This document shows positions 1 through 18,650 of a stretch of 33,892 nt of DNA, in pieces. Source of the stretch: Luminiphilus sp. (GTDB lineage: Bacteria > Pseudomonadota > Gammaproteobacteria > Pseudomonadales > Halieaceae); NCBI GenBank assembly GCA_029253085.1, contig JAQXAF010000036.1, positions 1 through 33,892 on the forward strand, given 5' to 3'. Below the pieces are notes generated by a model, which worked only from the letters and a program-made list of their open reading frames with translations, did not search any database and was not told the origin of the DNA. The position numbers were made by a program, and so were the translations under genes. Positions within the stretch are counted from its first letter, which is position 1; each line of letters starts with the position of its first letter.

Positions 1-395
1 GTTTGAGTCTCGCCGCCGCCGCCGATCTTCGAGTCGCCGACAGCACCGCAAAATTTTGTGCAGCCTATATTCGCATTGGGCTTACCGGCGCTGATATGGC
101 CAGTAGCTACCTTTTGCCCCGATTGGTCGGTGGCTCCTTTGCGGCTGAAATGATGATGACCGGTCGTGCCTATGCTGCCGATGCAATGGATAAACGCGGC
201 TTCCTTTCCGACCTTACTGATCCGGGGGCAAGGGAACCGGCGGTGGAGGCCTTGGTCACCGATCTATTGGCGACGGCGCCCCTTGGGCTTCGTCTGACCA
301 AAGAGGCAGTCCATCTGGGTATTGATTCGTCCTCCATGGAAGCGACTATGGCCCTAGAAGATCGGCATCAGACATTGTTTGTCGATGACCGATGA
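1..395 (+). CDS. Enoyl-CoA hydratase/isomerase (crotonase) family protein, 5' end outside window
   Basis: C-terminal part of a crotonase-fold protein, which hydrates or isomerises enoyl-CoA thioesters in beta-oxidation-like pathways. The visible part starts in the conserved core: an Ala-rich helix followed by ADLRVADSTAKF, then the family-typical stretches GLTGADMASSYLLPRLVG and AAEMMMTGRAYAADAM, then the late helix ending ALEDRHQTL. The upstream half, with the first oxyanion-hole segment, lies before base 1. The open frame closes early, at the TGA at 393-395. The expected crotonase tail is present just downstream in another frame (see 385-456), so the gene looks frameshifted by one base near 383. 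It converges on the mutase operon, so it may serve the same acyl-CoA pathway. The family is clear; the substrate cannot be told. Confidence 0.85.
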   Translation, partial: LSLAAAADLRVADSTAKFCAAYIRIGLTGADMASSYLLPRLVGGSFAAEMMMTGRAYAADAMDKRGFLSDLTDPGAREPAVEALVTDLLATAPLGLRLTKEAVHLGIDSSSMEATMALEDRHQTLFVDDR

Positions 396-456
396 TGCTG
401 CCGAGGCCATGCACGCCTTTCAGGAGCGAAGGGCTCCTGAGTACAAAGGCCGGTAA
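385..456 (+). pseudogene. Displaced C-terminal tail of the crotonase gene (frameshift)
   Basis: Reading from 385 gives MTDDAAEAMHAFQERRAPEY followed by KGR and a TAA at 454-456. This is the usual crotonase C-terminus (acidic turn, helix, then a basic R-x-P-x-(Y/F)-x-G-R end) and should follow QTLFV directly. Removing the single C at 383 joins the two frames as ...QTLFV-MTDD.... The break is either a real frameshift near the 3' end or a sequencing/assembly error. An intact gene would end at 456. Confidence 0.7.
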
Positions 457-475
457 TAGTAAGCAGGCGTCCCGC

Positions 476-496
476 CCGGAGCTGCCGGTGTTTTTT
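476..496 (+). terminator. Possible intrinsic terminator after the crotonase gene
   Basis: A short hairpin, CCGG-AGCTG-CCGG (476-488), is followed by TG and six T residues (491-496), 20 bp after the repaired crotonase stop. An alternative small hairpin, GGCG-TCC-CGCC, lies directly upstream (466-476). The stems are only 4 bp, so strength is doubtful, but the position between two convergent genes suits a terminator. No gene is seen in 457-612. Confidence 0.35.
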
Positions 497-612
497 GTCG
501 CGGCCCTCCCGAGTTGCAGTGCTATCGCGAACCGATAGCCCTTGTAGTTTGCCGGTCAGCGGTGATCACCCGATGATTCTTTCCAAGAGCGAGAGTTCGT
601 TTGGGGCGCGGG

Positions 613-1527
613 TTAGTTCTGTTCTCGGTAAAACTGTTGCAAGAGGTCGGCAGCACCCTCAGGTGCTGCGCTCTCGCTTCTGGCAGCCTCGGGTGATGCC
701 AGAAACGCTTCGAAGTCCCGCAAAAGCTGAGTTTTCGCACCTTCCCTGACCGCTTCACAGCGACGTCTACTCTGCCGGATTTTGGGAGCTTCCTGCATTA
801 AATCGGCCAGCGACTGCCACAGCTCGGGGATGCCCTCATCATCGGTGGCGATAGTAGTGAATACGCGGGGCGGCGTCGCTGCTGGCAAACATTGCAGCGA
901 TTGCTCAAGTAAAATTTTGGCGTTTTCAAGGCCCGGTCGATCGGCTTTGTTCAATACAAAGGCGTCGCCCTGCTCCGTCAGGCCCGCTTTGTTGGCCTGA
1001 AAACTGTCTCCCCAGCCGGGGTTGAGCACAACCGCGACGCGGTCCGCCAGCTCCATAACGTCCAGCTCGACCTGCCCAATACCTAATGTCTCGATGATGA
1101 CCAGCGGCCAGCCTGCGGCATCTAGCACGTTGACCGAGGCGCGTGTCGCAGCGGCAATGCCCCCCTGATAACCCCGTGAGGCCATGGAGCGGAAAAATAC
1201 TTTTTGATCGAAGTGGCGGTAGTCCATCCGCACACGATCTCCCAACAGTGCGCCGCCGGTTAAGGAAGAGCTTGGGTCCACCGCTAGAATGGCGACCGCG
1301 CCGTAATGATCTAGGGCATGGGGTAGCAATGCGCTGATCAGTGACGATTTACCGGCTCCCGGCGGTCCGGTGATCCCCAGTACGTGCGCGGCGGCGGGTT
1401 GCTGCAGGGCTCGCTGTTCAATTTCCAGCGCCTCTGGTCCACCCGATTCAATAGCAGAAATCGATTTGGCGAGTGCTCTGCGTGCGGTGAAACCGTCTCC
1501 CCAGTCAGCACTTGTGGCGTCGCTCAT
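613..1527 (-). CDS. meaB: MeaB/ArgK-type GTPase, chaperone of the neighbouring cobalamin mutase
   Basis: 304-aa G3E-family P-loop GTPase. MeaB-type proteins gate cobalamin loading and protect and reactivate adenosylcobalamin-dependent acyl-CoA mutases in the cytoplasm. Visible motifs: Walker A GPPGAGKSS (about residues 54-62), VDPSSSLTGGALLGDRVRM (84-101), the switch-like segment ETLGIGQVE (146-154) and the guanine-specificity motif NKAD (193-196). The segment between the last two, NPGWGDSFQANKAGL, departs from the usual PGxGDxLQxxKxGI wording, so this is a divergent member. The start ATG overlaps the stop of the B12-binding subunit by 4 nt (ATGA), so it is the last gene of a three-gene leftward operon and is presumably dedicated to that mutase. 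Confidence 0.9.
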   Translation of the reverse strand: MSDATSADWGDGFTARRALAKSISAIESGGPEALEIEQRALQQPAAAHVLGITGPPGAGKSSLISALLPHALDHYGAVAILAVDPSSSLTGGALLGDRVRMDYRHFDQKVFFRSMASRGYQGGIAAATRASVNVLDAAGWPLVIIETLGIGQVELDVMELADRVAVVLNPGWGDSFQANKAGLTEQGDAFVLNKADRPGLENAKILLEQSLQCLPAATPPRVFTTIATDDEGIPELWQSLADLMQEAPKIRQSRRRCEAVREGAKTQLLRDFEAFLASPEAARSESAAPEGAADLLQQFYREQN

Positions 1528-1913
1528 TGTGCTGTGCTGAGTCCTGTGAGCCGATTGGCTGAATCGACAATGTCAGTCAACATTGACCCTGGAGGAAAAA
1601 CTTCGAGTCCCTTTGCCTCGAGCTGCTTGCAGGCATGGGGTGGAATGGTTCCCCCAGCAAAGATTGGCATGTCTGGCGCTGCAGACTGCACCGCGTCAAC
1701 GGCCCTCAGTGCCACATCGATGTGACCACCGATATTAAGACCTACCAAATCGACGTCTTCGTCTATGGCAGCAGCAACAATTTCGGCGGTGGTTGCCATG
1801 CCAATCATGATCACCTCAAATCCAGCATCCCGCAAAGCTCTGGCTACAATAGTTGGCCCGCGCCAGTGCCCATCCAGACCGGTCTTGGCCATAAGAATAC
1901 GTTTTGGCTTCAC
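1524..1913 (-). CDS. Acyl-CoA mutase small subunit (B12-binding domain)
   Basis: Stand-alone adenosylcobalamin-binding domain of 129 aa. The signature DxHxxG is present as LDGHWRG at about residues 13-19; His16 would be the lower axial ligand to cobalt. GLNIGGHIDVAL and FAGGTIPPHA match the later conserved loops. A longer open frame reaches 1979, but I chose the GTG at 1911-1913: it follows the large-subunit stop (1927-1929) by 13 nt, is preceded by an AGGGAG ribosome site, and starts the protein right before the conserved RILMAKTGLDGH core. The split into a large catalytic subunit plus a small B12 subunit is the arrangement of isobutyryl-CoA and 2-hydroxyisobutyryl-CoA mutases and of some methylmalonyl-CoA mutases. 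It must pair with the product of 1927-3579. Confidence 0.9.
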   Translation of the reverse strand: MKPKRILMAKTGLDGHWRGPTIVARALRDAGFEVIMIGMATTAEIVAAAIDEDVDLVGLNIGGHIDVALRAVDAVQSAAPDMPIFAGGTIPPHACKQLEAKGLEVFPPGSMLTDIVDSANRLTGLSTAQ

Positions 1914-1926
1914 GACGTCGCTCCCT

Positions 1927-3579
1927 TTAACATTGAATTGGCGTACGCCAATCACCGAAAACCTCGCGGTATACGTCACCGACCTCTCCCAGGGTTGCCT
2001 CTGCTTCGAGACAATCCATCATGACCGGCATAATGTTGTCGCTGCCACGGCAAACACGCTCTAAATCTTTGAGCGCGGTTTTTGCCCCTTTTTCATGCCG
2101 CGTCCGTTTGACCTCTTTGAGGCGCTCCAGTGCCACGTCGAATGCATCATCGCTCCCGATAAAGCCGTCTATTTCAAAGGGACTGCTATCATCATGAGCC
2201 ATGGTGACACCGACAATATTTGCCTCGCCACTTTCGGTCTGCATAAACTCTTTGTGTTGATTTTCTTCAGCCTTGGCGTGCAACCAACCCGAATCAAGGC
2301 AGGCCAAATAGCCACCTCTTGCGAGGATTTCTTCAAAAAAAGCCCACGCTTTTTCAACGAGTTGCGCAGTGAGTGTTTCGACGTAATAAGACCCCCCGAG
2401 CGGATCAGTGACGTCGGTGAGTCCGGTTTCTTCCATAAGTATTTGTTGAATTCGAACTGACATCTGATGGGCGTGTTCGGAGGGAATGGACAAGGCTTCA
2501 TCGTAGCCCGACACACCTAATGACTGGACACCACCCAGCACCGCGCTGACGGCCATAAGAGCGCCGCGCACCAGATTATTCATGGGTTGTTGATAGGCCA
2601 TTTTTGAGCCAGCCGTTACGCAGTGAATTCTAAGATTAGCTACCCGCTCGTCGTTTATGCCATAGCGTTGTTTTAGCAGGTCCGACCACATAAGCCTCGC
2701 GGCTCGCATTTTGCAGGCTTCCTCAAAGATTTTGATAGAGGCCCTGAAGCTAACTCCGCCACAACCCCTAGCGGCGACTTCTAGGGGAATCCGCCCCCGC
2801 AACTTAATTTCGTCGAGGTATTCTACGGCGTTGGCAAACAAACTCCCCAGCTCTTGATCCGGAGTAAGACCGGTATCGGCTCCGTTGTAACCAGCAATTG
2901 ATACAGGTACCCAGCGTGGAAGATGTTCTGTGCAAAATTCTATGATGTCGCCGTTAAAGCGTAGCCCAGCATCGGTGGGAATCTGTTGTTTGGTGACGCA
3001 TCCGAGATAGGTCAGATTGAAGTCACTCTGCCCAGTGCCAGCTAACTTACTCAGGTCATATCCTCTTTTTTTGGCAACGGCCCAGTAAGCAGCCAGGGCA
3101 AAGGGTGCGTGTTGTACCACCGCGCCTCCAGCATGGCCGAAGCTGGTGTCCATAGGCAGCCCGTCGAGACAGATGGCTGTATCGCGCACGCTTTGCATGA
3201 CCGCGCCCGTCAGCCCTACATCTTCTCTGCGCGCCAGTACTTCGGGATGGTCAACGTTGTAGCAGTGATCTGCCGTATTACGGTCGTGCTCCATGATGAA
3301 ACCGGTCTCACCGTTTTTTAGCAAAAACTTGATGCGTTCATTCTCGTCTTCGGGCTTTCCAAAACCACTGAGCTGAAAAATACGCCAGGGTTTGGATCTA
3401 TAGCCGGAGGGATGAAAGCCTCGGTGATAGGGGGCCTCGCCCGGCGCTACATTCACGCGCTCGGCGTGGGAGTCGGGTATGTCTTCCGCCGTGTAATAGG
3501 ACTTAAGGGGAATATCCGAGCAAGCCTGCACCGTGTCTTGTGGATCTTTTGGGCGCATGTTGTAAAACCTCTCCAGCAT
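1927..3579 (-). CDS. Divergent cobalamin-dependent acyl-CoA mutase, large (substrate-binding) subunit
   Basis: 550-aa TIM-barrel subunit of the methylmalonyl-CoA mutase superfamily; radical carbon-skeleton rearrangement of an acyl-CoA. Family landmarks: PYHRG and YRSKPW near residues 50-65, SGFG at 71-74, NLRIHC at 315-320, VLGGVQSL at 347-354, and DPLGGSYYVE at 392-401. Hand alignment to family members recalled from memory shows unusual active-site residues. The position of Tyr89 of methylmalonyl-CoA mutase (Phe in isobutyryl-, Ile90 in 2-hydroxyisobutyryl-CoA mutase) is Leu70. The position of Asp117 of 2-hydroxyisobutyryl-CoA mutase is Glu97. The carboxylate-binding Arg207 is replaced by Cys194 or Val195. 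Catalytic His244 is Asn232 in IAGYNGADTG. It is therefore unlikely to be a methylmalonyl-CoA mutase; a hydroxylated or otherwise polar branched acyl-CoA is possible. First gene of the leftward operon with the B12 subunit and MeaB. The true substrate is unknown. Confidence 0.9.
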   Translation of the reverse strand: MLERFYNMRPKDPQDTVQACSDIPLKSYYTAEDIPDSHAERVNVAPGEAPYHRGFHPSGYRSKPWRIFQLSGFGKPEDENERIKFLLKNGETGFIMEHDRNTADHCYNVDHPEVLARREDVGLTGAVMQSVRDTAICLDGLPMDTSFGHAGGAVVQHAPFALAAYWAVAKKRGYDLSKLAGTGQSDFNLTYLGCVTKQQIPTDAGLRFNGDIIEFCTEHLPRWVPVSIAGYNGADTGLTPDQELGSLFANAVEYLDEIKLRGRIPLEVAARGCGGVSFRASIKIFEEACKMRAARLMWSDLLKQRYGINDERVANLRIHCVTAGSKMAYQQPMNNLVRGALMAVSAVLGGVQSLGVSGYDEALSIPSEHAHQMSVRIQQILMEETGLTDVTDPLGGSYYVETLTAQLVEKAWAFFEEILARGGYLACLDSGWLHAKAEENQHKEFMQTESGEANIVGVTMAHDDSSPFEIDGFIGSDDAFDVALERLKEVKRTRHEKGAKTALKDLERVCRGSDNIMPVMMDCLEAEATLGEVGDVYREVFGDWRTPIQC

Positions 3580-3585
3580 GTTTTT

Positions 3586-3637
3586 TACTCAGCGTACTAC
3601 ATGTTTACTTTCGAGTATGCAATTGATACGTTGAGTA
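3586..3637. promoter_or_regulatory. Divergent control region with clustered GAGTA/TACTC words
   Basis: The 93-bp space between the mutase operon (leftward) and the dehydrogenase/TetR run (rightward) must hold both promoters. It contains an imperfect inverted repeat, TACTCAGCG (3586-3594) and CGTTGAGTA (3629-3637), matching at 8 of 9 positions, with a short palindrome TACT-TTCG-AGTA (3606-3617) between them. This spacing of GAGTA half-sites looks like an operator for a dimeric regulator, the obvious candidate being the TetR protein at 4854. A weak rightward promoter (TTTACT, 17 bp, TACGTT) can be drawn through it. Inference only. Confidence 0.4.
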
Positions 3638-3672
3638 CAACAACTACAAAAAAATGAACATGGGGGCACGCT

Positions 3673-4851
3673 GTGTTTGGATACGACGCATCAACGCTGG
3701 GCTTAACCGCAACTGAGCGGGTCCATATGGGGCGCCGCGCCGCCGAGACTCTTGGCGAAGAGGCCCAGCTTTTAGGTGCTCAGCGAGTTTTTCTTTTGGT
3801 CAGTACCACATTGCGCAACAAAACCAACGAGATTGCTGAAATTGAAGCGGCTTTGGGCGCTCGTTTGGCACAGACCTACGATGGTATTGCTGCCCACGCC
3901 CCGCGGACGGACGTGTTAAAGGCGATTGAATCTGCGCGGTCAGTGGATGCAGATTTGATCATTACGGTGGGTGGCGGCTCTGTTACCGACGCGGGTAAGG
4001 TTATTGCTCTAGGTCTCAAACACAACATCAACACTCACGAAGATTTCGAGGGGTTCTACGTCTTCGTAGACGATAATGGCGACACCGTAGCACCGGTTTT
4101 TGAAGGTCCCGATATACGTGTTATTTGCTGTCCAACAACGTTGTCTGGGGGTGAGTTCAATACCATGGGCGGTGTCACTGATGATCGCGAAAATAAGAAG
4201 CAGGGCTACACTCACCGTATGATGGCGCCGATCGCTATCGTTCTTGATCCTGCCCTGACTTTGCACACGCCAGAATGGTTATGGCATTCAACCGGCGTGC
4301 GAGCCGTTGATCATGCGCTAGAATCCCTAAGCTCCAATCACTCCAGTTACTTTTGTGATGGTGTGGCTGAAAGTGCGCTCAGGTTGCTCAGTCAGGCTAT
4401 GCCAGCCGTCAAGGCTGATCCCTCCGATCTCGATGCGCGTCTGCGTTGCCAGATAGGTGCTTGGCAGTCGATGATTCCCATTATCGGCGGTGTTCCGATG
4501 GGCGCGAGTCACGCAATTGGTCATGTGCTAGGGGGGACCGCAGATGTTCCTCATGGTTATTGCTCCTGCGTTATGGCGCCGGCAGTGTTGGCTTTTAATA
4601 AGCCGGTTACCGGCGCTAAGCAGGTAAAAGTCAGCGATAGCTTTGGGCGTCCGGGAGAGGATGCCAGCGTTGTGCTCGACGAGTTTATCCGTGGGCTGGG
4701 CATGCCTCGGTCATTAGGTGAAGTGGGGGTTAGCGATGACCAGCTCGATCTCATCGCCGAATACACCATGTTGGATTTTTGGTCCCGCACCAATCCGCGT
4801 GAAATCACTGGCCCCGCCGATGTTCGAAGCATTTTGGAACAGGCGCGTTAA
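3673..4851 (+). CDS. Iron-containing alcohol dehydrogenase / maleylacetate reductase family protein
   Basis: 392-aa member of the Fe-ADH fold, probably an NAD(P)-dependent alcohol, semialdehyde or keto-acid oxidoreductase. The nucleotide-binding signature VGGGSVTDAGK is at residues 99-109. Metal-site histidines are recognisable: His214 (AVDHALES), the pair in SHAIGH (280-284) and PHG (His294). The first ligand, normally Asp in a GxDAxxHAxE motif, is Arg210 here (TGVRAVDHALE); maleylacetate reductases also lack this Asp. Metal use is therefore uncertain. The GTG start follows a GGGG-containing leader. It is the first gene of a rightward cluster, 2 nt before the TetR gene and divergent from the mutase operon, which suggests it oxidises or reduces an intermediate of the same pathway. 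Confidence 0.85.
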   Translation: MFGYDASTLGLTATERVHMGRRAAETLGEEAQLLGAQRVFLLVSTTLRNKTNEIAEIEAALGARLAQTYDGIAAHAPRTDVLKAIESARSVDADLIITVGGGSVTDAGKVIALGLKHNINTHEDFEGFYVFVDDNGDTVAPVFEGPDIRVICCPTTLSGGEFNTMGGVTDDRENKKQGYTHRMMAPIAIVLDPALTLHTPEWLWHSTGVRAVDHALESLSSNHSSYFCDGVAESALRLLSQAMPAVKADPSDLDARLRCQIGAWQSMIPIIGGVPMGASHAIGHVLGGTADVPHGYCSCVMAPAVLAFNKPVTGAKQVKVSDSFGRPGEDASVVLDEFIRGLGMPRSLGEVGVSDDQLDLIAEYTMLDFWSRTNPREITGPADVRSILEQAR

Positions 4852-4853
4852 CA

Positions 4854-5543
4854 GTGACTGCGGCGATTAGTCTCGCGCAAAGTAACCTTAAACATGAGGT
4901 TTCCGATTTTAAACGTCGGCGCATTCGTGAAGAAGCCAGTCATCTGTTTTTTCAGCAGGGTTACGAAGGGACAACCCTCGATGCTATTGCTCAGCGACTC
5001 GACGTTACCAAGCCCTTTCTTTACACGCATTACGCTAACAAAGCCGAGCTACTCTATGACATTTGCAGAACAGGTATTTTGCAGTCGCTAGCAGCCATTG
5101 ATCCTATTCTAGACGACAGCACGGCGACCGCAGCGGATCGCTTGGGTCGCTTGGTAGAGGCGGTTTTGGCGATTATTTTTGATTATCAGGAATTTATTGT
5201 TGTCTACGAGCGCGAAGAAAAAAACCTCGATGAAATGCAGGCCAGAGAAATTCGCGAGCACCGCAGCTTATTCGACCATAAAGTTGCCATGTTGCTAGAG
5301 CAAGGTCGCGCGTCCGCAGAATTCGAGGTGATCGATGCGGTGCTCACCGCTAATACCATTGGTGGAATGATGACGTGGGTAGCACTGTGGTATCGCTCCG
5401 GCGGTAAGCGAACCCGTCACCAGATTATTAGTCATACGCTAAGGATGGTGTTCTCAGCAGCGGGTGCAAACCAAAAAGGTCAAAGCGACATTTTGCCCCT
5501 GCGGCACGAGGAGGGTGGCGTTAAAGGGGTGGATAAAATATGA
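4854..5543 (+). CDS. TetR/AcrR-family transcriptional regulator
   Basis: 229-aa regulator. The N-terminal helix-turn-helix is clear: RIREEASHLFFQQGYEGTTL, then DAIAQRLDVTKPFLYTHYAN and KAELLYDI, about residues 22-70. The rest is an all-helical ligand-binding domain without assignable specificity. The GTG start lies 2 nt after the dehydrogenase stop, and the 3' end overlaps the acyl-CoA ligase start by 4 nt (ATGA), so the three genes are co-transcribed and translationally coupled. Such regulators commonly repress the catabolic genes around them and respond to an acyl-CoA or pathway substrate. The GAGTA-rich divergent region at 3586-3637 is its likely target, by inference. Confidence 0.9.
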   Translation: MTAAISLAQSNLKHEVSDFKRRRIREEASHLFFQQGYEGTTLDAIAQRLDVTKPFLYTHYANKAELLYDICRTGILQSLAAIDPILDDSTATAADRLGRLVEAVLAIIFDYQEFIVVYEREEKNLDEMQAREIREHRSLFDHKVAMLLEQGRASAEFEVIDAVLTANTIGGMMTWVALWYRSGGKRTRHQIISHTLRMVFSAAGANQKGQSDILPLRHEEGGVKGVDKI

Positions 5544-7165
5544 GCACGCAAACATCAACGTCAGACCCGCGCATCCCCGAGCGCGATCGCTGTGTAACGC
5601 GCTATCTGCTGCAACGCTGGGCAGAAGAGAAGCCTGAGCAGATTTTTGCACTGTTTCAAGATGGCGAGGAGTGGACCTACGATGAGCTACTCAGCAGAGT
5701 CCAACAATTGGCCGGTGGTTTTGCTAAAGCGGGTGTGTCGCGTGGAGATCATGTTGCCGTTTGGATGTTTGATGGCAAGGAGGCAATCCTTACGTTTTTT
5801 GCGCTGAATTACTTGGGTGCTGTGTTTGTGCCGCTTAATACGGCTTTTAAAGGGAAGGTACTCGAGCACACGCTTAACCTGTCTGACGCCGAAATTTTGG
5901 TGGCTCATGCGCAACTGTTGGAACGACTTGGGGAGGTTGTTTGTCCCAAGCTGAGTCAGATCATCAGCCTCGGTGATGGTTCGGTTCCTCGGGATTATCA
6001 GGGCACACCTTGGTCCGTTGTTAGTGAAGCTAGTGCCGTCCCGCCTGAACTTGATCGACCCATAGAACCTTGGGACACCCAATCTATTATTTTCACATCG
6101 GGTACTACTGGCCCCTCAAAGGGCGTGCTGTCGTCCTATCTCCATATTTTTACCAATGCGGGCCCTGAGAGTTGGCCATTTGTCACGGGTGAGGATCGCT
6201 TCCTCATCAATATGCCTATCTTTCATATAGGCGGCATGGGTGTGATTTTCGTGATGCTGGCGAGGGGTGGCTCCATTGCCGTTTCAGAGGGATTTTCAAC
6301 CGATACGTTTTGGCCTTTTGTTCGTTCATCGAAAACGACCGTTGTATTCTTGCTGGGTGTGATGGGTACTTTTCTGTTGAAGCAACCGCCCTCCGACGGT
6401 GATCGTGATCACGGGATTCGATTGGTGTTCATGGTGCCACTTACCGAGACATGTGCTGAATTTAAGACCCGCTTCGGTCCCGATGTTTTTACCATTTTTA
6501 ATATGACCGAAGTGAGCTCACCCATCGTGTCAGAGGCCAATCCAACCAAGCGGGGTACTTGTGGCCGCAAGCGCGATGGCGTCGATGTTCGTCTGGTCGA
6601 TGATCATGACTGTGAAGTGCCTCTCGGCGAAATCGGAGAAATGATCGTTCGCACGGACCGCCCTTGGGGCATGAATTCGGGTTACTACAAGCAGAGCGAT
6701 GCCACGGCAGAAGCCTGGCGCAATGGTTGGTTTCACACCGGAGATTGTTTCCGTGTTGATAGTGACGGCTACTATTATTTTGTGGACCGTATGAAAGACG
6801 CGATCCGCAGACGCGGTGAAAATATCTCATCTTTTGAAGTGGAGGCGGAAGTCGTGGCGTACGAGGCCGTTCGAGAGGCCGCCGCCTACGCCGTGCCCAG
6901 TGATGTGGGTGAAGACGAGGTGATGGTGGCGGTTGCTCCTGTGGAGGGCCAGACCATTGATCCCGAGACCTTAGTACGTTTTCTCGGTGAGCAAATGGCG
7001 CATTTCATGGTGCCACGATATGTCCGCATTCTTGACGAGCTGCCCAAAACACCGTCATCAAAGGTCATGAAGCATGTATTAAGAAACGAGGGTATTACTA
7101 GTGATACCTGGGACAGAGCAGCCATTGGCCTGCAATTTAAACGCGAAATACTAACGGCCCAGTAA
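5540..7165 (+). CDS. AMP-binding acyl-CoA synthetase (CaiC-like)
   Basis: 541-aa ANL-superfamily ligase that activates a carboxylic acid with ATP and CoA via an acyl-adenylate. Motifs in order: the phosphate loop IIFTSGTTGPSKGV (about 179-192), the central MTEVSSPIV segment, the adenine/hinge region GWFHTGDCF and DRMKDAIRRRGENISSFEVE, and the C-terminal catalytic Lys in PKTPSSKVMKHVLR. The Arg-Arg-Gly-Glu-Asn-Ile-Ser version of the hinge motif is common in crotonobetaine/carnitine-CoA-ligase-like members. The start ATG overlaps the TetR stop by 4 nt; the stop lies 40 nt before the receptor gene. It probably activates the acid formed by upstream oxidation so that the mutase and crotonase can act on it. 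Confidence 0.92.
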   Translation: MSTQTSTSDPRIPERDRCVTRYLLQRWAEEKPEQIFALFQDGEEWTYDELLSRVQQLAGGFAKAGVSRGDHVAVWMFDGKEAILTFFALNYLGAVFVPLNTAFKGKVLEHTLNLSDAEILVAHAQLLERLGEVVCPKLSQIISLGDGSVPRDYQGTPWSVVSEASAVPPELDRPIEPWDTQSIIFTSGTTGPSKGVLSSYLHIFTNAGPESWPFVTGEDRFLINMPIFHIGGMGVIFVMLARGGSIAVSEGFSTDTFWPFVRSSKTTVVFLLGVMGTFLLKQPPSDGDRDHGIRLVFMVPLTETCAEFKTRFGPDVFTIFNMTEVSSPIVSEANPTKRGTCGRKRDGVDVRLVDDHDCEVPLGEIGEMIVRTDRPWGMNSGYYKQSDATAEAWRNGWFHTGDCFRVDSDGYYYFVDRMKDAIRRRGENISSFEVEAEVVAYEAVREAAAYAVPSDVGEDEVMVAVAPVEGQTIDPETLVRFLGEQMAHFMVPRYVRILDELPKTPSSKVMKHVLRNEGITSDTWDRAAIGLQFKREILTAQ

Positions 7166-7205
7166 GGGTTATAAACCTAAAGTTGTGAAGCGAGGAGTAA
7201 CACCC

Positions 7206-9401
7206 ATGAAAATAATAGGATATTTCCCAAGGTTCCTAGCGCTCAGCAGCGCGGCTGTTATGACTGCTCAAGCGCTAGCCCAACCCGCTCTAGAAGAAGT
7301 GGTGGTGACGGCCTCCAAAAAAGATGTCTCAGTCACTGATCTTGCGGCGGCAGCCAATGTGATTGGCGGTGAAGACATTGTTCCGGGAGGGGTGCAATCC
7401 GTACGCGACATGATTGTCGACGTGCCCAATCTTTCCATCGGCGATCAATTTGGTTTCGCCCGGGTCTTTATGCGCGGTATTGGCATGACCAGTATTGATA
7501 TCGGGGGTGAGGGTGCCGTCGCTTTCCTGCAGGACGGCGCTATTATTCCTCGTCCTGCAGCGCAGTTAATGGGCATGTTTGACTTGGCCCAGCTTGAAGT
7601 ATTACGCGGGCCCCAAGGAACACTGTATGGCCGTGGTGCGACTGCCGGCGTTATTAACATGGTGACGGCGAAGCCCGGGGATGATGTTGGCGGTTACATC
7701 CGAGCAACGGCGGGTAATTATGGTTTGCTTGATATTGAGGGTGCGGTAGACCTGCCTCTCAGTGATGCGCTGTCAGTACGATTGGCCGGTAAGTTTGAGA
7801 ATCGGGATGGTTATGGCACCAACCTGTTTTCCGGCGAGGAAGTTGACGATCGTGATGCTCAAGCTTATCGCGCGACGTTCGCCTACGACGCTGGTGGCTC
7901 CTTTAGGGCAACAGCCGCTTACCAGCATTACGAAGAAGATGATCAGAACTTCGCTTTTCACTATTTTGGCCCCTCGGAGGGTAATCCATTAGGCCCACTC
8001 GCGGTGCCAATTTTTGGTGGCCAAACGGTCTTTCAGGCGGGGGGCAGTATTTACGACATCAACTCCGATCAAGAGGCTATAAATACGCGGGAGGGTGAGA
8101 GCGGTATTATCACTATGGAGTTTGATGTCGCAGAGAATCAGACGTTGAAATCCATCACATCTTTTCAGGAAATGGATCGTTTCCTAAGGGACGATCTCGA
8201 TTCCACCGACGCAAATTTATTTGGTCAGAACAACTACACTGAAGAGAGTGAATCCTGGAGTCAGGAGCTGACCTACAATTTCTCTGGGGATCGTCTCGAT
8301 GTTTTAGCGGGCGCCATGTACTTTGAGGAAGAACTGTACGGTCAGGTTTTGGTACCACTCACCAATATTTGCGCATTACTTGCGCCCGAGCTTTGTGGAA
8401 CACCCGTGGGAGATTTTCTCAGTACCGGTCGGTATGAGCAAAACGGTGATGTTGATATTGAGGCCTATGGTATTTATGCGGAAGCCAGTTACCAGCTAAC
8501 AGAAGCCCTCAAAATAATCGCCGGCGTGCGCTATAACTATGAAGAACGCAGCGGCACAGGAGCTTTTGTGTTTGATGCGGCGGGTCTTGATGTTCCAACG
8601 AATCAAAGTGAGGACTGGAGCGATGTCACTCCTCGTCTAACGGTAGAGTTTGAGCCCAACGACAACATGTTGCTTTACGCGACGTATAACCAGGCATTTA
8701 AGTCGGGGGTAATTAATACGGGTAGTACCAGTCCGGCGCTCGAACCCGAGACCGTCGATGCTTTTGAGGTTGGCGTTAAGGGTTCGACAGCAGATGGCGG
8801 CATGCGCTATGCGATCTCTGGCTTCTACTACGATTATGCCGATCTGCAGATCTCTTTTGTTGATGAAACCAGCACGGTCAGCACCATCAACGCCGCTGAG
8901 GCAGAAAACTATGGCATCGAGGTCGAGATCGATGCAGCGCTATCCGATTCGTTCACCATGGATTTCTACGCAACGTACTTGAGCGCTGAATACAAAGAGT
9001 TCTTCAATGGCGATTACTCGGATGGCTTTGCGGTAAAGGACCTCAGTGGTAATACGTTACCCAATGCGCCGGAGTACACCTTTAAGGTGGGCCTGAACTA
9101 TATGGCGTCAATGATGGGCGGGGATGTGATGTTGCGGGGTGAATACTATTATCAGGACGATGTTTATTTCACCGAATGGAATCGTGCTGATGCGTATCAA
9201 GAGGGTTATGGTCTTCTCAATGCGCGTGCGGTCTACACGTTGCCTGGCGAAAGCTGGAGCTTTGCTGTTTGGGGGCGCAACCTTGCCGACGAGGAAGTGA
9301 TTTCTAACAACATCATTACGGCGCCGCTCTATAACTCGCTGCGGGTGGGTTCAATGTTGCCACCTCGCACCTACGGTGCAACCGTTAGCTTCGAGTTCTA
9401 G
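7206..9401 (+). CDS. TonB-dependent outer-membrane receptor
   Basis: 731-aa outer-membrane receptor for active, TonB-driven uptake. I chose the ATG at 7206 rather than the upstream GTG at 7185 because GAGGAG sits about 8 nt before it and it gives a clean signal peptide ending AQALA before QPALEE. A TonB-box/plug start, LEEVVVTASKK, follows. The plug domain includes VRDMIVDVPNL and LEVLRGPQGTLYGRGATAGVIN, and many amphipathic strands lead to the C-terminal YGATVSFEF with terminal Phe. Lying between an acyl-CoA ligase and a P450, it most likely imports the organic substrate or an analogue rather than iron, although siderophore transport cannot be excluded from sequence alone. Confidence 0.93.
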   Translation: MKIIGYFPRFLALSSAAVMTAQALAQPALEEVVVTASKKDVSVTDLAAAANVIGGEDIVPGGVQSVRDMIVDVPNLSIGDQFGFARVFMRGIGMTSIDIGGEGAVAFLQDGAIIPRPAAQLMGMFDLAQLEVLRGPQGTLYGRGATAGVINMVTAKPGDDVGGYIRATAGNYGLLDIEGAVDLPLSDALSVRLAGKFENRDGYGTNLFSGEEVDDRDAQAYRATFAYDAGGSFRATAAYQHYEEDDQNFAFHYFGPSEGNPLGPLAVPIFGGQTVFQAGGSIYDINSDQEAINTREGESGIITMEFDVAENQTLKSITSFQEMDRFLRDDLDSTDANLFGQNNYTEESESWSQELTYNFSGDRLDVLAGAMYFEEELYGQVLVPLTNICALLAPELCGTPVGDFLSTGRYEQNGDVDIEAYGIYAEASYQLTEALKIIAGVRYNYEERSGTGAFVFDAAGLDVPTNQSEDWSDVTPRLTVEFEPNDNMLLYATYNQAFKSGVINTGSTSPALEPETVDAFEVGVKGSTADGGMRYAISGFYYDYADLQISFVDETSTVSTINAAEAENYGIEVEIDAALSDSFTMDFYATYLSAEYKEFFNGDYSDGFAVKDLSGNTLPNAPEYTFKVGLNYMASMMGGDVMLRGEYYYQDDVYFTEWNRADAYQEGYGLLNARAVYTLPGESWSFAVWGRNLADEEVISNNIITAPLYNSLRVGSMLPPRTYGATVSFEF

Positions 9402-9422: not shown

Positions 9423-10649
9423 GTGAATAGCACGTTCTCCTTCAACCCTATGGATCCGCAACTGCTTGCGGATCCATACCCTATTTTTCGCCAAATGCGT
9501 GAGGACGATCCAGTACATCGGTCAGATCTCGGATTTTTAGTGATGACCCGCTACGATGATTGCCGCCACGTGCTGATTGATAAAGCCTTTGGCCAAGGCG
9601 ACTTTGTTCGTAATATTCAGCTGTTTTACGACGAAGATTTTGACGTGTTATCTCACCCCGCTTATGCCTGGCTGTCCCGTGTATTCGTTATGCAGGATCC
9701 ACCTCAGCACACGCGGCTGCGGGGTCTGATCGCGGGGGCGCTGTCACTGAAGCGCATTCGTGCCCTGGAGCCACGAGTAAGAGAACTTGCTCGCGGGCTG
9801 TTGGCCGCTATAAAAGGCCAGCCCGGCGTGAATTTCATTGAGACCTTTGCTTATCGGTTTCCCACCTTGGTCATGTGTGACATGTTGGGTCTTGAGGAAA
9901 GCGAGTTTTCTGATGAACTTCTTCTGCAGTTGAATCAGGCGATTGCAGATACCTTCCCCGTGTTTGAAACGAGAGCCCTTAACAGCGCTGAGTTGGCATT
10001 AGCCAATCGACAGATGGAGTTTTTGACGGCCTTTTTTGACGACTTGTTTGCCAGGCGCCGTCTCAATCCCCGCGACGATCTGAGTACCGCATTGGCCATG
10101 GCCAACGAGGGTGGCAATTCGATGTCGCCCGAGGAACTCAGTACTTCAGTCATTGGGCTGTTTGGGGCGGGCTTCGAGACGACAGCCCACATGATTGGTA
10201 ATGGGTTGTATCTGCTGGGAGCTCACCCTGAGGAGCGCGCTAAGCTAAAGGCAGATCTCAGCTTGGCGGGTGCTGCGACCGAGGAGATTACCCGCTTCGA
10301 GTCATCACTTCAGGCGACGTACCGCACAGCGCTGTCCGATACGGTGGTGGGAGATCGATCTATTCAGGCGGGTGAGCGTATCTTGACGATTGTTGCGGCG
10401 GCTAACCGTGACGCCGCTGTCTTTCAGCAGCCTGAATCCTTTGTGATTGATGCGCGTCAGGAAAAACCGCTGACCTTTGGTGGCGGCATTCATTATTGCG
10501 TGGGCGCTGAATTGGCGCGACTAGAAGGTCGGATTTTCTTGGAAGAGCTGTTTTCGGTCTACCCCAACTTTCAAGTTGATACCGAGTCTGCACGTCTTCG
10601 ACAGGCGTTTTTATTCAGGGGTTTTGAGCATCTAGGCGTGACACTGTAG
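9423..10649 (+). CDS. Cytochrome P450 (bacterial, soluble)
   Basis: 408-aa haem monooxygenase, normal length for a soluble class I bacterial P450. The haem-ligand loop FGGGIHYC (352-359, Cys359 ligating iron) continues GAELARLEGR. The I-helix oxygen-binding motif AGFETT (249-254) and the K-helix ExxR (EITR, 288-291) are present. QDPPQHTRLRGLIAGALS (91-108) matches the C-helix region. There is no membrane anchor. The GTG start lies 21 nt after the receptor stop, with no strong ribosome site. The stop codon overlaps the next start by 1 nt (TAGTG), so it is coupled to the flavin monooxygenase. No ferredoxin or ferredoxin reductase gene is adjacent, so redox partners must come from elsewhere. It likely hydroxylates the imported substrate. 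Confidence 0.93.
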   Translation: MNSTFSFNPMDPQLLADPYPIFRQMREDDPVHRSDLGFLVMTRYDDCRHVLIDKAFGQGDFVRNIQLFYDEDFDVLSHPAYAWLSRVFVMQDPPQHTRLRGLIAGALSLKRIRALEPRVRELARGLLAAIKGQPGVNFIETFAYRFPTLVMCDMLGLEESEFSDELLLQLNQAIADTFPVFETRALNSAELALANRQMEFLTAFFDDLFARRRLNPRDDLSTALAMANEGGNSMSPEELSTSVIGLFGAGFETTAHMIGNGLYLLGAHPEERAKLKADLSLAGAATEEITRFESSLQATYRTALSDTVVGDRSIQAGERILTIVAAANRDAAVFQQPESFVIDARQEKPLTFGGGIHYCVGAELARLEGRIFLEELFSVYPNFQVDTESARLRQAFLFRGFEHLGVTL

Positions 10650-11731
10650 TGGCTGAAGCGCATCGTACGGCAAGGCGCATGCTGTCACTAGGCCTGTTTA
10701 TGCCCAACTGCTCGAATATGCCTTCGATATCGACTCATGAAGTTGTCTCTGATCAGTGGACTTATGCTGAGAACGAGTTGCTGGCCCAGCGTGCGGAAGC
10801 GCTGGGTTTTGATTACCTCTTTCCCGTATCGCGTTGGCGTGGGTTTGGCGGTGAAACTAATTTCTTGGGAACGTCACTTGAAACAACCACTTGGGCGGCT
10901 GCGTTGTTGCGCACTACTGAGCGCATCAATATTTTTTCAACCGTGCACGTCCCGTTATTTCACCCCTTTGTGGTGGCTAAAATGGGGGCCACTTTGGCGC
11001 ACATGAGTAGTGATCGCTGGGGTCTAAATGTTGTTAGCGGTTGGAGTGCTCGAGAATTTGGCATGATGGGTGTGGAGTTGGCCGAGCACAGTCGACGCTA
11101 TGAGCGCACCGCAGCCTTTATCGAAATTCTTAGAGGGCTTTGGGACTCGACTCAGCAACCCCTCAATCATCACAGTGATTGGTACCGGGTGATCGATGGA
11201 GAGGCATCACCTATCCCTCAACGGCAGCCACAAATTGCCAATGCGGGAACTTCGGCAGATGCCCAAAGTATGACGGCGCGTCTGTGTGACTGGGCCTTTA
11301 TCTCAACGCCATCTATCGCTGCCGTGGGGTCTATCGTTGAGAGTATTGCGTCTCAGGCGGCTGTACATCACCGTCGAGTCAGGACTGCAATTTTTCCTTT
11401 CTTACTGTGGGCTGATAGTCGAAGCGAGGCCGAAGACAGATTAGCGGCAATCATTGCGTCTAAAGACTCTGTGGCGGTCGATAATTGGCTTCACGATTTA
11501 ACCGCGGGTAGCGGCTCGTTTGACGATTTCACCAAAGATATGCTGGCGGCCTCGGGTGGCGGTGTACACGTCGTTGGCACCGCTGCGGACGTCGTGGAGC
11601 AGCTTATTGAAGCCCATAGATTGGGTGTCGATGCAGTTATGCTGACGTTTCCCCAATACCGTGACGATCTCGAACGTTTCGCTCGAGATATCCAGCCCGC
11701 ATTGGTTGACGCGAATATTGTCGCTCCCTAA
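10649..11731 (+). CDS. LLM-class flavin-dependent monooxygenase
   Basis: 360-aa bacterial-luciferase-like TIM-barrel enzyme using reduced FMN supplied by a separate reductase. The N-terminal strand LSLGLFMPNCSN, the helix AQRAEALGFDYLFPVSRWRG, and especially LNVVSGWSAREFGMMGVE followed by HSRRYERTAAFIEILRGLW resemble the RutA/SfnG/DszA-like branch, whose members break C-N, C-S or C-C bonds or perform Baeyer-Villiger chemistry. The GTG start overlaps the P450 stop by 1 nt. No flavin reductase gene is in the window. With the P450 before it and an SMP-30/lactonase-like protein after it, an attractive reading is oxygen insertion next to a carbonyl followed by lactone opening; this is inference. 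Confidence 0.88.
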   Translation: MAEAHRTARRMLSLGLFMPNCSNMPSISTHEVVSDQWTYAENELLAQRAEALGFDYLFPVSRWRGFGGETNFLGTSLETTTWAAALLRTTERINIFSTVHVPLFHPFVVAKMGATLAHMSSDRWGLNVVSGWSAREFGMMGVELAEHSRRYERTAAFIEILRGLWDSTQQPLNHHSDWYRVIDGEASPIPQRQPQIANAGTSADAQSMTARLCDWAFISTPSIAAVGSIVESIASQAAVHHRRVRTAIFPFLLWADSRSEAEDRLAAIIASKDSVAVDNWLHDLTAGSGSFDDFTKDMLAASGGGVHVVGTAADVVEQLIEAHRLGVDAVMLTFPQYRDDLERFARDIQPALVDANIVAP

Positions 11732-11837
11732 CAGCACTATGGTGCGCTTCGCATGATCACAATGAGTCGAGCGGCTTGGGCTTTTGCCCGTGTCGCCCCT
11801 TGCATTTTTCGAGGCATGTTGCTGGGGGATAGGAACC

Positions 11838-12680
11838 ATGGAACGCGGTAAAACTCTGATTTGCGATGGCTTTGCTTTTATTGAGGGACCACGTTGGTAC
11901 GGGGGGGCATTGTGGTTTTCTGATATGTATGACGAGGCGGTTTATCGCGTGGTACCCGGTACTGCCCCTGAGCGCGTGGTGGCAGTGCCTCAGCAGCCAT
12001 CGGGTTTGGGCTGGCTGCCCAATGGTGACCTACTGATTGCGTCCATGCTGGACCGTCAGGTGTTGAGATATACCGGTTCAAAGGCATTGTTACCCTATGC
12101 CGATCTGTCAGCAATTGCAGAGCGTCGTATCAATGACATGCTGGTCGATTCACAGGGTCGAGCCTGGGTGGGAAACTTTGGCTTCGATCTTTCCGAAGGG
12201 GAAGCCGTCCTGCCGGGAACGCTAGCGCGGATCGACATTAATGGATCGGTGCACGCTGCCGCGGGCGATCTGCTCTTTGCTAACGGCATGACCCTTTTAA
12301 ATGGAGGGTCGGTCTTGGTGGTCGCGGAGACCTATAAAGGCTGCCTGACAGCGTTTGATATTTCTTCAACATCTGAGCTTATCAATCGGCGTATCTGGGC
12401 GGTATTACCCGAGGGTGCGGTACCCGATGGTATTTGTGCTGACACAGAGGGTGCGATTTGGGCAGCGTCACCGACGACGGGGTCGGTGTTGCGGCTGCGT
12501 GAGGGCGGTGCAGTTTTGGACAGCATAGAGACTGGCCGGCAGGCGATTGCCTGTGCACTCGGTGGGCCAGAGGGCGACACGCTGTTTATCAGTTCGGCGG
12601 TGGCGACTAAGCGACAGGCATGTCGAGATGCGCTGACGTCCCGCATCGACGCTTATCGGGTATCGGTGCCGGTGGCCTAG
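11838..12680 (+). CDS. SMP-30/gluconolactonase-like beta-propeller protein
   Basis: 280-aa six-bladed propeller of the SMP-30/LRE family, metal-dependent lactonases and related hydrolases. Conserved parts: the first blade FIEGPRWYGGALWFSDM with the metal-ligand Glu in EGP, GLGWLPNGDLLIASM, INDMLVDSQGRAWVGNFGFD with the ligand Asn, and PDGICADTEGAIWAA with the ligand Asp. A longer frame begins at 11784, but the ATG at 11838 lies downstream of a GGGGATAGGA leader and starts the protein just ahead of the first blade. It is the last gene of the rightward run, 106 bp after the flavin monooxygenase. Likely role: opening a lactone produced by the preceding oxygenases. It faces the next ligase gene with only 6 bp between stops. 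Confidence 0.85.
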   Translation: MERGKTLICDGFAFIEGPRWYGGALWFSDMYDEAVYRVVPGTAPERVVAVPQQPSGLGWLPNGDLLIASMLDRQVLRYTGSKALLPYADLSAIAERRINDMLVDSQGRAWVGNFGFDLSEGEAVLPGTLARIDINGSVHAAAGDLLFANGMTLLNGGSVLVVAETYKGCLTAFDISSTSELINRRIWAVLPEGAVPDGICADTEGAIWAASPTTGSVLRLREGGAVLDSIETGRQAIACALGGPEGDTLFISSAVATKRQACRDALTSRIDAYRVSVPVA

Positions 12681-16841: not shown

Positions 16842-18650
16842 GTGAAAGCAACTGATACCAAAGATCCCGAATATTTCCACAAGGTAGTGGACTGCCAGTA
16901 CGCCTGCCCGGCCCACACACCTGTGCCCGAGTATATTCGCCTTATTGCGGCAGGCCGCTACACCGATGCCTACATGGTTAACTGGGAATCTAATGTGTTT
17001 CCTGGAATCCTAGGGCGTACTTGCGATCGTCCTTGCGAACCGGCCTGTCGTCGCGGTCGAATTGAAGACGAAGCCGTGGCGATTTGTCGGCTCAAGCGTG
17101 TCGCTGCAGACAACAAAGACGACGTTAAGCATCTGCTGCCAACTGTGCCGGTAGAGGGCAACGGCAAGCGTGTGGCCTTGATTGGTGCTGGACCGGCCTC
17201 CCTAACGGTCGCCAGGGACCTCGCGCCCTTGGGTTACCAAATTGACCTTTACGATGATCAGCCGGTAGGTGGCGGCTTTATGCGCAGCCAAATACCGGCG
17301 TTTCGATTGCCTCCCGAGGTGCTAAATGAAGAGGTCGACTTCATTCTTAATATGGGCATTCGACAACATTTTCAAACCTATATCTCAAGCCTTAAGTCGA
17401 TTTTGCAACAGGGATATAACGCCGTGTTTATCGGTACAGGGGCACCTCGGGGTAGCGATTTAGACATTCCAGGGCGAGAGGCCTGTGATAAGTCGATTCA
17501 TGTGGGTATCGATTGGTTGGCGTCGGTCGCTTTTGATCATGTCAGCAAGATAGGCAAACGCGTGCTGGTTCTAGGTGGCGGTAATACCGCTATGGATTGC
17601 TGCCGTACAGCTCGACGCGTGGGAGGTGAGGACGTCAAAGTCGTGGTGCGCTCAGAGTTCGCCCGAATGAAAGCATCGGCCTGGGAAATTGAAGACGCCG
17701 CCGGTGAAGATATCCCCATTATCAATAACCATGTACCCAAAGAATTTGTCCATGAAGACGGTGTTCTTAAGGGCATGCGCTTCACCGTGGTCGATGTTGT
17801 TTATGACGCTGAGGGCAATCGCGAATTAGTGCCGACGGGGGAAGAGGTATTTTTTGAGGCAGACGACGTTATCATTGCCATCGGTCAAGACAATGCCTTT
17901 CCCTGGATTGAACGCAATCTTGGCATCGAATTTGGAAAGTGGGACATGCCCGTAGTCGATAAAACCACGTTCCAGAGTACCTTGAAAAAAGTATTCTTGG
18001 GTGGCGATGCGGCATTTGGTCCAGAAAATATCATCACCGCCGTCGCTCACGGCCATCAGGCTGCCATCTCCATTGACCTGTTTTTAAAGGGAGAGCGAGT
18101 CGAAAATCGCTTGGCCCCCGGGGTGACCTTGGTCAGCCAGAAAATGGGCGTACACGAATGGAGTTACGACAGCGAAGTCTCAAACGACGATCGCTACCCC
18201 GTACCTCACGTGAGCAAGGAAAAAGCGCTGCGAGACCGCAAGCTCGAGGTTGAACTGGGCTTTGATATCGAGGTCGCTTATCAGGAGGCCGAGCGCTGCC
18301 TAAATTGTGACGTTCAGACGGTATTTACAACCTCTAAGTGCATTGAGTGCGATGCTTGCGTTGATATTTGTCCTACAGACTGTATTAACTTTATTAATAA
18401 CGATGCTGAACCTGCACTGCGCCAGGCATTGCGCCGTCCCGCGAAACGTGAGGATCAGGATTTGTACGTTTCGACAGCGTTGCCTCAAACAAAACGGGTC
18501 ATGGTGAAAGACGAAGATGTCTGTTTGCACTGTGGGCTCTGTGCCGAACGATGTCCCACGGGTGCATGGGATATGCAGCGATTTTTTTATAGTGTTACCA
18601 AGGCTGGAAGCTCATGCAAGCAAAGCAGTCCGTCAATGACTTCGTCATAA
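16842..18650 (+). CDS. FAD/iron-sulfur NAD(P)-linked subunit of a 2-oxoacid oxidoreductase (GltD-like)
   Basis: 602-aa flavoprotein. The N-terminal region resembles glutamate synthase small subunit, with cysteines at 18, 22, 61, 65 and 69 (CDRPCEPAC) for Fe-S binding. It is followed by an FAD-type Rossmann fold (VALIGAGPASLTVARDL), an NAD(P) Rossmann fold (VLVLGGGNTAMDCCRTARR) and GDAAFGPENIITAVAHG. The C-terminus adds a two-cluster ferredoxin domain: CIECDACVDICP (500-511) and CLHCGLCAERCP (561-572). In 2-oxoglutarate:NADP+ oxidoreductase of Azoarcus, a three-subunit enzyme with a comparable Fe-S flavoprotein has been described (from memory), so this subunit likely passes electrons from the Kor active site to NAD(P)+. 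The 3' end overlaps korA by 37 nt, implying coupled translation. Confidence 0.88.
   Translation: MKATDTKDPEYFHKVVDCQYACPAHTPVPEYIRLIAAGRYTDAYMVNWESNVFPGILGRTCDRPCEPACRRGRIEDEAVAICRLKRVAADNKDDVKHLLPTVPVEGNGKRVALIGAGPASLTVARDLAPLGYQIDLYDDQPVGGGFMRSQIPAFRLPPEVLNEEVDFILNMGIRQHFQTYISSLKSILQQGYNAVFIGTGAPRGSDLDIPGREACDKSIHVGIDWLASVAFDHVSKIGKRVLVLGGGNTAMDCCRTARRVGGEDVKVVVRSEFARMKASAWEIEDAAGEDIPIINNHVPKEFVHEDGVLKGMRFTVVDVVYDAEGNRELVPTGEEVFFEADDVIIAIGQDNAFPWIERNLGIEFGKWDMPVVDKTTFQSTLKKVFLGGDAAFGPENIITAVAHGHQAAISIDLFLKGERVENRLAPGVTLVSQKMGVHEWSYDSEVSNDDRYPVPHVSKEKALRDRKLEVELGFDIEVAYQEAERCLNCDVQTVFTTSKCIECDACVDICPTDCINFINNDAEPALRQALRRPAKREDQDLYVSTALPQTKRVMVKDEDVCLHCGLCAERCPTGAWDMQRFFYSVTKAGSSCKQSSPSMTSS

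Follow-up and report, generated by a model that had tools for sequence, protein, structure and literature searches.

Adenosylcobalamin (AdoCbl)-dependent acyl-CoA mutases work by homolysis of AdoCbl, after which a hydrogen is taken from the substrate, the thioester carbonyl group migrates and the hydrogen is returned. His244 (methylmalonyl-CoA mutase is numbered here as in P. shermanii) contacts the thioester carbonyl during this migration. To our knowledge, few substrate classes have been described for the B12 acyl-CoA mutases. Those that bear on the system considered here are methylmalonyl-CoA mutase itself, the 2-hydroxyisobutyryl-CoA mutase HcmAB, the fused isobutyryl-CoA mutase IcmF, and Xaut_5043/5044, which we take to be pivalyl-CoA mutase. 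The system in question lies in a stretch of 33,892 nucleotides from Luminiphilus sp. (Halieaceae; contig JAQXAF010000036.1 of assembly GCA_029253085.1), referred to below as the window, which is contig C58 of a genome bin of 2.29 Mb in 152 contigs, 79% complete. Its gene at 1927-3579 encodes a mutase large subunit with Asn at the place of His244. Judged from sequence, there is a probability of about 70% that this protein, which belongs to a distinct clade, is a working AdoCbl-dependent acyl-CoA mutase within a catabolic cluster for a branched or cyclic compound, and it is plausible that the rearrangement it would catalyse is an undescribed one. No account of this clade was found in the openly licensed literature (CC0, CC BY, CC BY-SA), most subscription papers being outside the search.

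Three open reading frames (ORFs) on the minus strand, listed in the order of transcription, make up the core of the system:

1927..3579, minus strand: acyl-CoA mutase large (catalytic) subunit, 550 amino acids (PF01642, 453.6 bits)
1524..1913, minus strand: separate B12-binding subunit, likely 129 amino acids (PF02310, 70.3 bits; the ORF is open to 1979)
613..1527, minus strand: MeaB-type GTPase chaperone, 304 amino acids (PF03308, 216.3 bits against a cut-off of 23.1)

The large subunit passes the curated cut-off of PF01642 (22.1 bits), and its best sequence match in the PDB is HcmA (4r3u, 319.5 bits). An AlphaFold model of its 550 residues (mean predicted local distance difference test, pLDDT, 82.4; predicted TM-score 0.85) again matches HcmA 4r3u best (TM 0.83-0.84), then methylmalonyl-CoA mutases and then IcmF. 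The NCBIfam equivalog profile for methylmalonyl-CoA mutase, PRK09426, gives 339.3 bits against a cut-off of 876, although this profile also spans the fused B12 domain and so scores a separate large subunit at a disadvantage. The profile for the fused IcmF, NF045497, gives 134.6 bits against 1500; here the mutase, the B12 subunit and the GTPase are three ORFs. The start of the B12 subunit at 1913 was picked by comparison with a second copy of the locus, on contig C63 (see below), and its DxHxxG motif reads DGHWRG when aligned to 2yxb and to the small subunit of 4r3u. The GTPase gene overlaps the stop of the B12 subunit by four bases; its product, with 6cum and 3nxs among its PDB kin, scores narrowly below the curated cut-off of TIGR00750 (MeaB), at 232.3 bits against 240.75.

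The case for a distinct enzyme starts from the active site, where equivalences were read from a HMMER alignment to solved structures and from MAFFT alignments. The codons concerned are as follows:

3370..3372, minus strand: Leu70, at the place of P. shermanii Tyr89 and HcmA Ile90
3289..3291, minus strand: Glu97, at the place of P. shermanii Ala116 and HcmA Asp117
3133..3135, minus strand: His149, clade-specific, at about Thr166 (an approximate equivalence, with a two-residue alignment gap just before it)
2998..3000, minus strand: Cys194, at the place of Arg207, with a one-residue insertion nearby
2884..2886, minus strand: Asn232, at the place of His244

The initial annotation had proposed by hand alignment that Leu70, Glu97, Cys194 or Val195, and Asn232 occupy these places and that the combination is unlike that of characterised mutases. 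The placements are upheld by the alignments, which read Leu, Cys (or Val) and Asn rather than Tyr, Arg and His, and the combination is indeed unlike that of any characterised mutase compared. The spacing between Leu70 and Glu97 is 27 residues, free of gaps, as between Ile90 and Asp117 in HcmA. One extra residue in the clade between Gln184 (equivalent to Gln197) and Pro201 puts either Cys194 or Val195 opposite Arg207; Cys194 is preferred because the AlphaFold helix ends at residue 193 (the block 191-200 having a mean pLDDT of just 74) and because Cys194 is invariant and residue 195 is not. The remark that loss of the His is unusual stands for the methylmalonyl-, 2-hydroxyisobutyryl-, fused isobutyryl- and presumed pivalyl-CoA mutase rows, all of which keep His244; for ethylmalonyl- and unfused isobutyryl-CoA mutase, to which the remark extended, no row bears the name. 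The PDB entry 1e1c is, by its title, the H244A mutant of methylmalonyl-CoA mutase. Other residues of that enzyme are kept, with Gln197, Tyr243, His328 and Glu370 appearing as Gln184, Tyr231, His319 and Glu361. Further near-invariant changes specific to the clade are Arg66 (Thr85), Phe68 (Arg87), His98 (Phe117), Arg100 (Leu119), Val321 (Gln330), Gly355 (His364) and Ser357 (Asn366), besides His149 near Thr166.

Conservation of these residues was followed in 75 rows, the window and 74 loci from a genome_contigs scan whose profile drew on nine clade members, partial rows being counted only where a letter is present. The scan works through two short patterns, NIMP[AV]MM (residues 515-521) and [ST]K[PA]WRIFQ (residues 62-69), so that relatives with neither pattern are missed and there is some selection for Arg66 and Phe68. 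Neither pattern covers Leu70, Glu97, Cys194 or Asn232. Leu70 is found in 73 of 74 rows, Glu97 in 71 of 73, Cys194 in all 71, and Asn232 in 70 of 71. L101 (Anaerolineae, 33-34% identity) departs at Leu70, at Asn232 and at Glu97; both trees described below place it elsewhere, and it was rejected as a clade member. The second row that departs at Glu97 is L095, from an Ilumatobacteraceae bin, in which residues 97 and 149 are both Lys, a hint from one sequence that Glu97 and His149 are coupled. The clade then comprises 73 loci and the window, with identities down to about 55%; two of the loci (L094 and L105) are contigs of one assembly. By record title its hosts are Halieaceae, Steroidobacteraceae, Alphaproteobacteria and Acidimicrobiia. 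Bins titled Klebsiella pneumoniae and Janthinobacterium lividum (L058, L073) carry clade mutases near Halieaceae or other proteobacterial ones, and these titles look doubtful. In a whole-protein search free of patterns, the members found (15 loci and the window) show the same four residues.

Contig C63 of the same bin (locus L034) is collinear with window positions 1-8845, including the mutase, a ligase and a TonB receptor, with 86.9% identity over 8,862 columns. Between the two mutase copies, nonsynonymous divergence (dN) is 0.021 and synonymous divergence (dS) 1.17, and the resulting dN/dS of 0.018 means strong purifying selection on the mutase. A sequencing error or a decayed gene is ruled out by this ratio together with the conservation across the clade. 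The C63 copy may represent a related strain binned together with the first, or a duplication.

The descent of the protein was followed in two trees. In a quick tree of 78 rows, 18 of them from the clade, the clade forms one branch (SH-aLRT, a likelihood-ratio branch support, 100) with a stem length of 1.89 changes per column, and it is separate from the groups of methylmalonyl-CoA mutase, HcmA and Xaut_5043. A careful, bootstrapped tree of 64 rows was made with the columns of residues 68, 70, 97, 194 and 232 removed; it omitted 15 of the 78 rows (L187, L197, L033, L029, L037, L071, L112, L121, L143, L144, L205_2, L209, L213, L216 and L217) and added P. shermanii MutB. The methylmalonyl group closes without the clade in both trees (SH-aLRT 100 in the quick tree, 100/100 in the careful one), so that a place inside the methylmalonyl-CoA mutases, which the initial annotation had named as one outcome that would count against it, is ruled out by supported branches. 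The clade itself is secure. In the careful tree it falls within a branch of 26 rows (support 97/96), all of them without His at the 244 place, and the methylmalonyl, HcmA and Xaut_5043 groups, each with 100/100, all lie outside that branch. Two changes of the His state suffice in this tree, the second being that of L201 and L202. These two and L217 (from the genomes of L059, L058 and L076) look like a second lineage without His244, with Gln in its place, Glu at the Asp117 place and a very long branch. In a larger set of 84 clade rows and 131 others, which holds loci fetched twice from two collections so that its counts overstate the sample, His is found at the 244 place in 111 of the 131 others, another letter in 19 and a gap in 1, duplicates included.

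Approximately unbiased (AU) tests on the careful data set reject a grouping of the clade with HcmA (p 0.0017) and do not reject the methylmalonyl group as its sister (p 0.199). On the quick data set, with the long-branch rows L187, L197 and L033 omitted, neither is rejected (p 0.146 for HcmA, 0.236 for methylmalonyl). The Xaut_5043 group joins the larger set containing the clade in quick trees (88; 92.3) and not in the careful tree. Tentatively, the clade may belong to a deep mutase branch that lost His244 early, in which radical migration would be independent of that His (through the Asn amide and a Glu97/His149 pair in the clade) and substrates would extend beyond the known mutase reactions. 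We know of no characterised member of such a branch.

The clade mutase is a patchy, accessory gene. It occurs in 15 of 97 genomes, those of the host and its relatives (E-value 6.8e-284 or better), 14 of the 15 being among the 57 genomes of the host's genus, and among 369 genomes sampled across the host's class, with at most three candidates scored per genome, 3 carry it, the host included (E-value 1e-110 or better). Thirty-eight clade-bearing genomes, which account for 38 of the 74 loci, were searched with PF01642. All 38 had a match, 37 at least two, and 32 a match stronger than the clade member (E-value 4.1e-200 or better; none in G792, G806, G808, G809, G810 and G822), which indicates that the clade gene is an extra mutase in most of these genomes. 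Among the stronger mutases that are in the tree, L165, L178 and the window genome's own L001 belong to the methylmalonyl group, and L181 and L198 fall elsewhere. Two alphaproteobacterial genomes, marine by title, those of L074 (G807) and L103 (G824), hold 18 and 17 PF01642 matches, respectively, besides 22 and 26 for the B12-binding domain; many of their mutases adjoin a B12 domain, and many have pocket residues unlike those of characterised rows.

The reading of the mutase as part of a catabolic cluster comes from its neighbours in the window, most of which form a divergent cluster on the plus strand, in this order:

3673..4851, plus strand: iron-type alcohol dehydrogenase, the divergent neighbour (PF00465, PF25137)
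4854..5543, plus strand: TetR regulator (family scan)
5540..7165, plus strand: AMP-forming acyl-CoA ligase, predicted maker of the mutase substrate (PF00501)
7185..9401, plus strand: TonB-dependent receptor, predicted to take up the parent compound (read from the translation only)
9423..10649, plus strand: cytochrome P450 (PF00067; nearest solved kin a vitamin D3 25-hydroxylase)
10649..11731, plus strand: luciferase-like monooxygenase (PF00296)
11784..12680, plus strand: SMP-30/gluconolactonase-like protein (PF08450)

On the other side of the core system lies a further gene:

3..395, plus strand: enoyl-CoA hydratase, cut at the left edge of the window (homologous to L034:1760-2566)

Across the clade, neighbours were counted at 40% identity or more in the 46 well-covered loci, those with 5 kb or more of sequence on each side. 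The B12 subunit is present in all 46, an acyl-CoA ligase, whether like that of the window or of the kind seen in actinobacteria, in 42, MeaB in 33, the iron-type alcohol dehydrogenase and the TetR regulator in 32 each, the TonB receptor in 29, enoyl-CoA hydratase in 26, the P450 in 18, the luciferase-like monooxygenase in 14, acyl-CoA dehydrogenase in 13, a lactonase-like metallo-hydrolase in 12 and a short-chain dehydrogenase/reductase in 11. At the same identity threshold, the ligase is found in 60 of all 73 loci. With truncated loci included and any match at an E-value of 1e-8 or better accepted, the SMP-30-like gene is found in 3 of the 73 and the B12 subunit in 69, the other four loci (L094, L102, L104 and L108) being cut off within the mutase or right at its end. 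In actinobacterial loci the mutase, the B12 subunit and the ligase stay together, and most other neighbours are swapped, often for a nitroreductase or for a protein read as an ATP-binding cassette (ABC) substrate-binding protein, which matched no family. The gene set has the look of a catabolic unit, with uptake, oxidation, CoA activation, skeleton isomerisation and beta-oxidation. Prediction of the substrate from the neighbours and their nearest solved kin (P450, the metallo-hydrolase of L060, alcohol dehydrogenase) gave no unique compound; the nearest kin of the L060 metallo-hydrolase are an organophosphorus hydrolase and lactonases, and those of the alcohol dehydrogenase are a family member of unstated substrate, with maleylacetate reductases also among its kin.

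A scheme can be proposed in which the cluster would take up and oxidise a branched or cyclic parent compound, and the ligase would make a CoA thioester with a carbon skeleton that stops beta-oxidation. If the enzyme is catalytic, and with the CoA substrate and the direction of reaction assumed here, the large subunit (1927) and the B12 subunit (1524) would carry out Co-C homolysis and hydrogen abstraction and would shift CO-SCoA onto the adjacent carbon atom, the cofactor would be loaded and repaired by MeaB, and the product would be degraded by enoyl-CoA hydratase and dehydrogenases. Within the pocket, Asn232 would hold the thioester carbonyl as an amide donor in place of His244, possibly helped by the clade-specific pair of Glu97 and His149. 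Loss of Tyr89 and Arg207, the methylmalonate-binding pair, argues against a free alpha-carboxylate and suggests a pocket opened for a bulkier or uncharged group. Glu97 may pair with His149, Arg66 or Arg100 (His98 may also be near) as a structural or catalytic partner, or may bind a substrate hydroxyl. That the mutase works at all, as the initial annotation had supposed from the dedicated B12 subunit and MeaB, is argued by these two genes, and now also by the ligase context and the strong purifying selection.

Several observations weigh against this scheme or parts of it. The positions of Thr85, Arg87, Ser114 and Asn236, which we take to be CoA contacts in the P. shermanii mutase, read Arg66, Phe68, Ile95 and Val224 in the clade, so that even the binding of CoA is uncertain. 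A thiolase is found in just 1 of the 46 well-covered loci, and a ligase of the types counted is missing from 4 of them (L066, L074, L082 and L083). The neighbour counts stand without control loci around other mutases, and the difference between proteobacterial and actinobacterial neighbours means that a single substrate is not assured. As to descent, the two data sets do not agree on the sister group of the clade. The rows of the His-less branch are long, and nine of the ten partners of the clade in it come from two alphaproteobacterial bins; L187, omitted from the careful tree, lacks the His and lies outside the branch in the quick tree, and L197, likewise omitted, has the His yet lies inside it (branch lengths 1.41 for L187 and 2.59 for L197). 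These long branches and dropped rows make the placement in a His-less branch provisional.

One other explanation is that the enzyme is a 2-hydroxyacyl-CoA mutase working like HcmA, with Glu97 binding the hydroxyl as Asp117 does and a 3-hydroxyacyl-CoA as the product. Glu97 does stand exactly at the Asp117 place, HcmA is the best PDB match in sequence and in fold, the ligase, the B12 subunit and the GTPase are clustered as around the Methylibium and Xanthobacter kin of HcmA, and the quick data set allows the grouping (p 0.146). However, the careful analysis rejects it (p 0.0017), HcmA and eight of its kin keep the His and have Asp, the joint change of Glu97 and His149 in L095 suggests a partner within the protein, and neither acyl-CoA dehydrogenase (13/46) nor enoyl-CoA hydratase (26/46) would be needed for a 3-hydroxy product, so that this explanation appears rather unlikely. 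The initial annotation had likewise drawn a hydroxyl or other polar group on the substrate from Leu70 and Glu97; the residues hold and the deduction is weak, as Glu97 may pair with basic residues and as Leu occurs also in Xaut_5043 and some of its kin, which means that Leu70, taken alone, is as much a sign of space for a bulky group as of a hydroxylated substrate. That shared Leu speaks for action on quaternary-carbon (2,2-dialkyl) acyl-CoAs, as in pivalyl-CoA mutase, and so do the catabolic setting with ligase and beta-oxidation genes and the weakly supported set that unites the Xaut_5043 group with the clade in quick trees. This too is doubtful, since Xaut_5043 has Gln at the Tyr243 place followed by His244, where the clade has Tyr231 and Asn232, the careful tree puts its group elsewhere, with L201 and L202 (86/71), Glu97 would face an apolar group, and the assignment as pivalyl-CoA mutase is itself presumed.

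A known reaction (on methylmalonyl-, ethylmalonyl- or isobutyryl-CoA) carried out with an odd active site would agree with the ordinary fold and with the AU tests, which leave the methylmalonyl sister place available; it is improbable, given that the three methylmalonyl determinants are all replaced, that 32 of 38 genomes hold a separate, stronger mutase match, that the clade is left out of the methylmalonyl group by fully supported branches, and that PRK09426 reaches 339 bits against 876. Still less probable is an AdoCbl radical enzyme that acts on an acyl-CoA without rearranging the skeleton, by elimination or another radical reaction: the loss of the His that contacts the thioester carbonyl and the extensive remodelling of the barrel would fit, but nothing positive points that way, and the fold, the B12 subunit and the context are those of a mutase. 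The loss of a catalytic residue is the one argument for a catalytically dead or regulatory protein, which is made very improbable indeed by a dN/dS of 0.018, by a residue set conserved over two phyla, by the presence in all 46 well-covered loci of a B12 subunit, which has its cobalt-binding motif, and by MeaB in 33 of them. The working mutase of a distinct clade is thus the preferred reading.

The divergent promoter between the mutase and the alcohol dehydrogenase contains one further feature:

3583..3640, no strand assigned: imperfect inverted repeat with 27-nucleotide arms, 70% complementary, a candidate operator

It is a candidate operator for the TetR regulator. Its arms are identical in the C63 copy, and similar sequences, judged by eye, occur upstream of other clade mutases, several of them from Luminiphilus. 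The enoyl-CoA hydratase at 3-395 ends earlier than its C63 homologue, which may reflect a frameshift or a misassembly. Farther along, at 16842-21537, lie apparent genes for a 2-oxoacid:ferredoxin oxidoreductase and a pyridine-nucleotide/4Fe-4S partner protein. An Rfam scan of 131,317 bases from six sources gave no match at gathering score, a cobalamin riboswitch or other known RNA not being found. A phage origin was rejected, as a scan of viral contigs gave no relative, as was a plasmid origin, the matches in a plasmid search all being below 60% identity, in 419 records.

The active site of this clade is thoroughly rebuilt and conserved, and the clade possibly belongs to a His-less branch of the family that has yet to be explored and in which several further reactions may be found. 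Since the Asn is conserved in nature, the role of the carbonyl-contacting His could be examined here in an enzyme whose evolution did without it, and the clade records include named strains (Pseudohaliea rubra, Haliea alexandrii, Kineobactrum sediminis and Acidithrix ferrooxidans). For coastal Halieaceae and for Acidimicrobiia, the cluster moreover suggests a pathway that breaks down branched compounds.

Compared with the known systems, the clade differs from IcmF, which has the B12 domain, the GTPase and the mutase in one chain. With methylmalonyl-CoA mutase (1req, 2xij, 6oxc) it shares the fold and Gln197, Tyr243, His328 and Glu370, whereas Tyr89, Arg207 and His244 are all replaced and the B12 domain is on a separate chain. 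The ten His-less mutases L188, L189, L190, L191, L195, L206, L207, L208, L210 and L219 resemble it in having Asn, Asp, Gly or Phe at the 244 place and in joining it at 97/96 without the signature columns; they differ in most other pocket residues and in their long branches. Xaut_5043/5044 is alike in the Leu at the Tyr89 place, in the separation of its subunits and in the GTPase and TetR genes close to it, and Xaut_5043 is unlike in keeping His244, in the Gln at the Tyr243 place, in the absence of an acid at the Asp117 place, and in its own long branch. HcmAB (4r3u) shares with the clade separate large and B12 subunits and an acidic residue at the Asp117 place, and the HcmA kin of Methylibium and Xanthobacter also have a GTPase and an AMP-binding ligase nearby. 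The clade has Leu for the Ile and Glu for the Asp of HcmA, which are conservative changes, but it has Asn instead of His at the 244 place and Cys (or Val) instead of Gln at the Arg207 place, and it forms a separate group in the trees.

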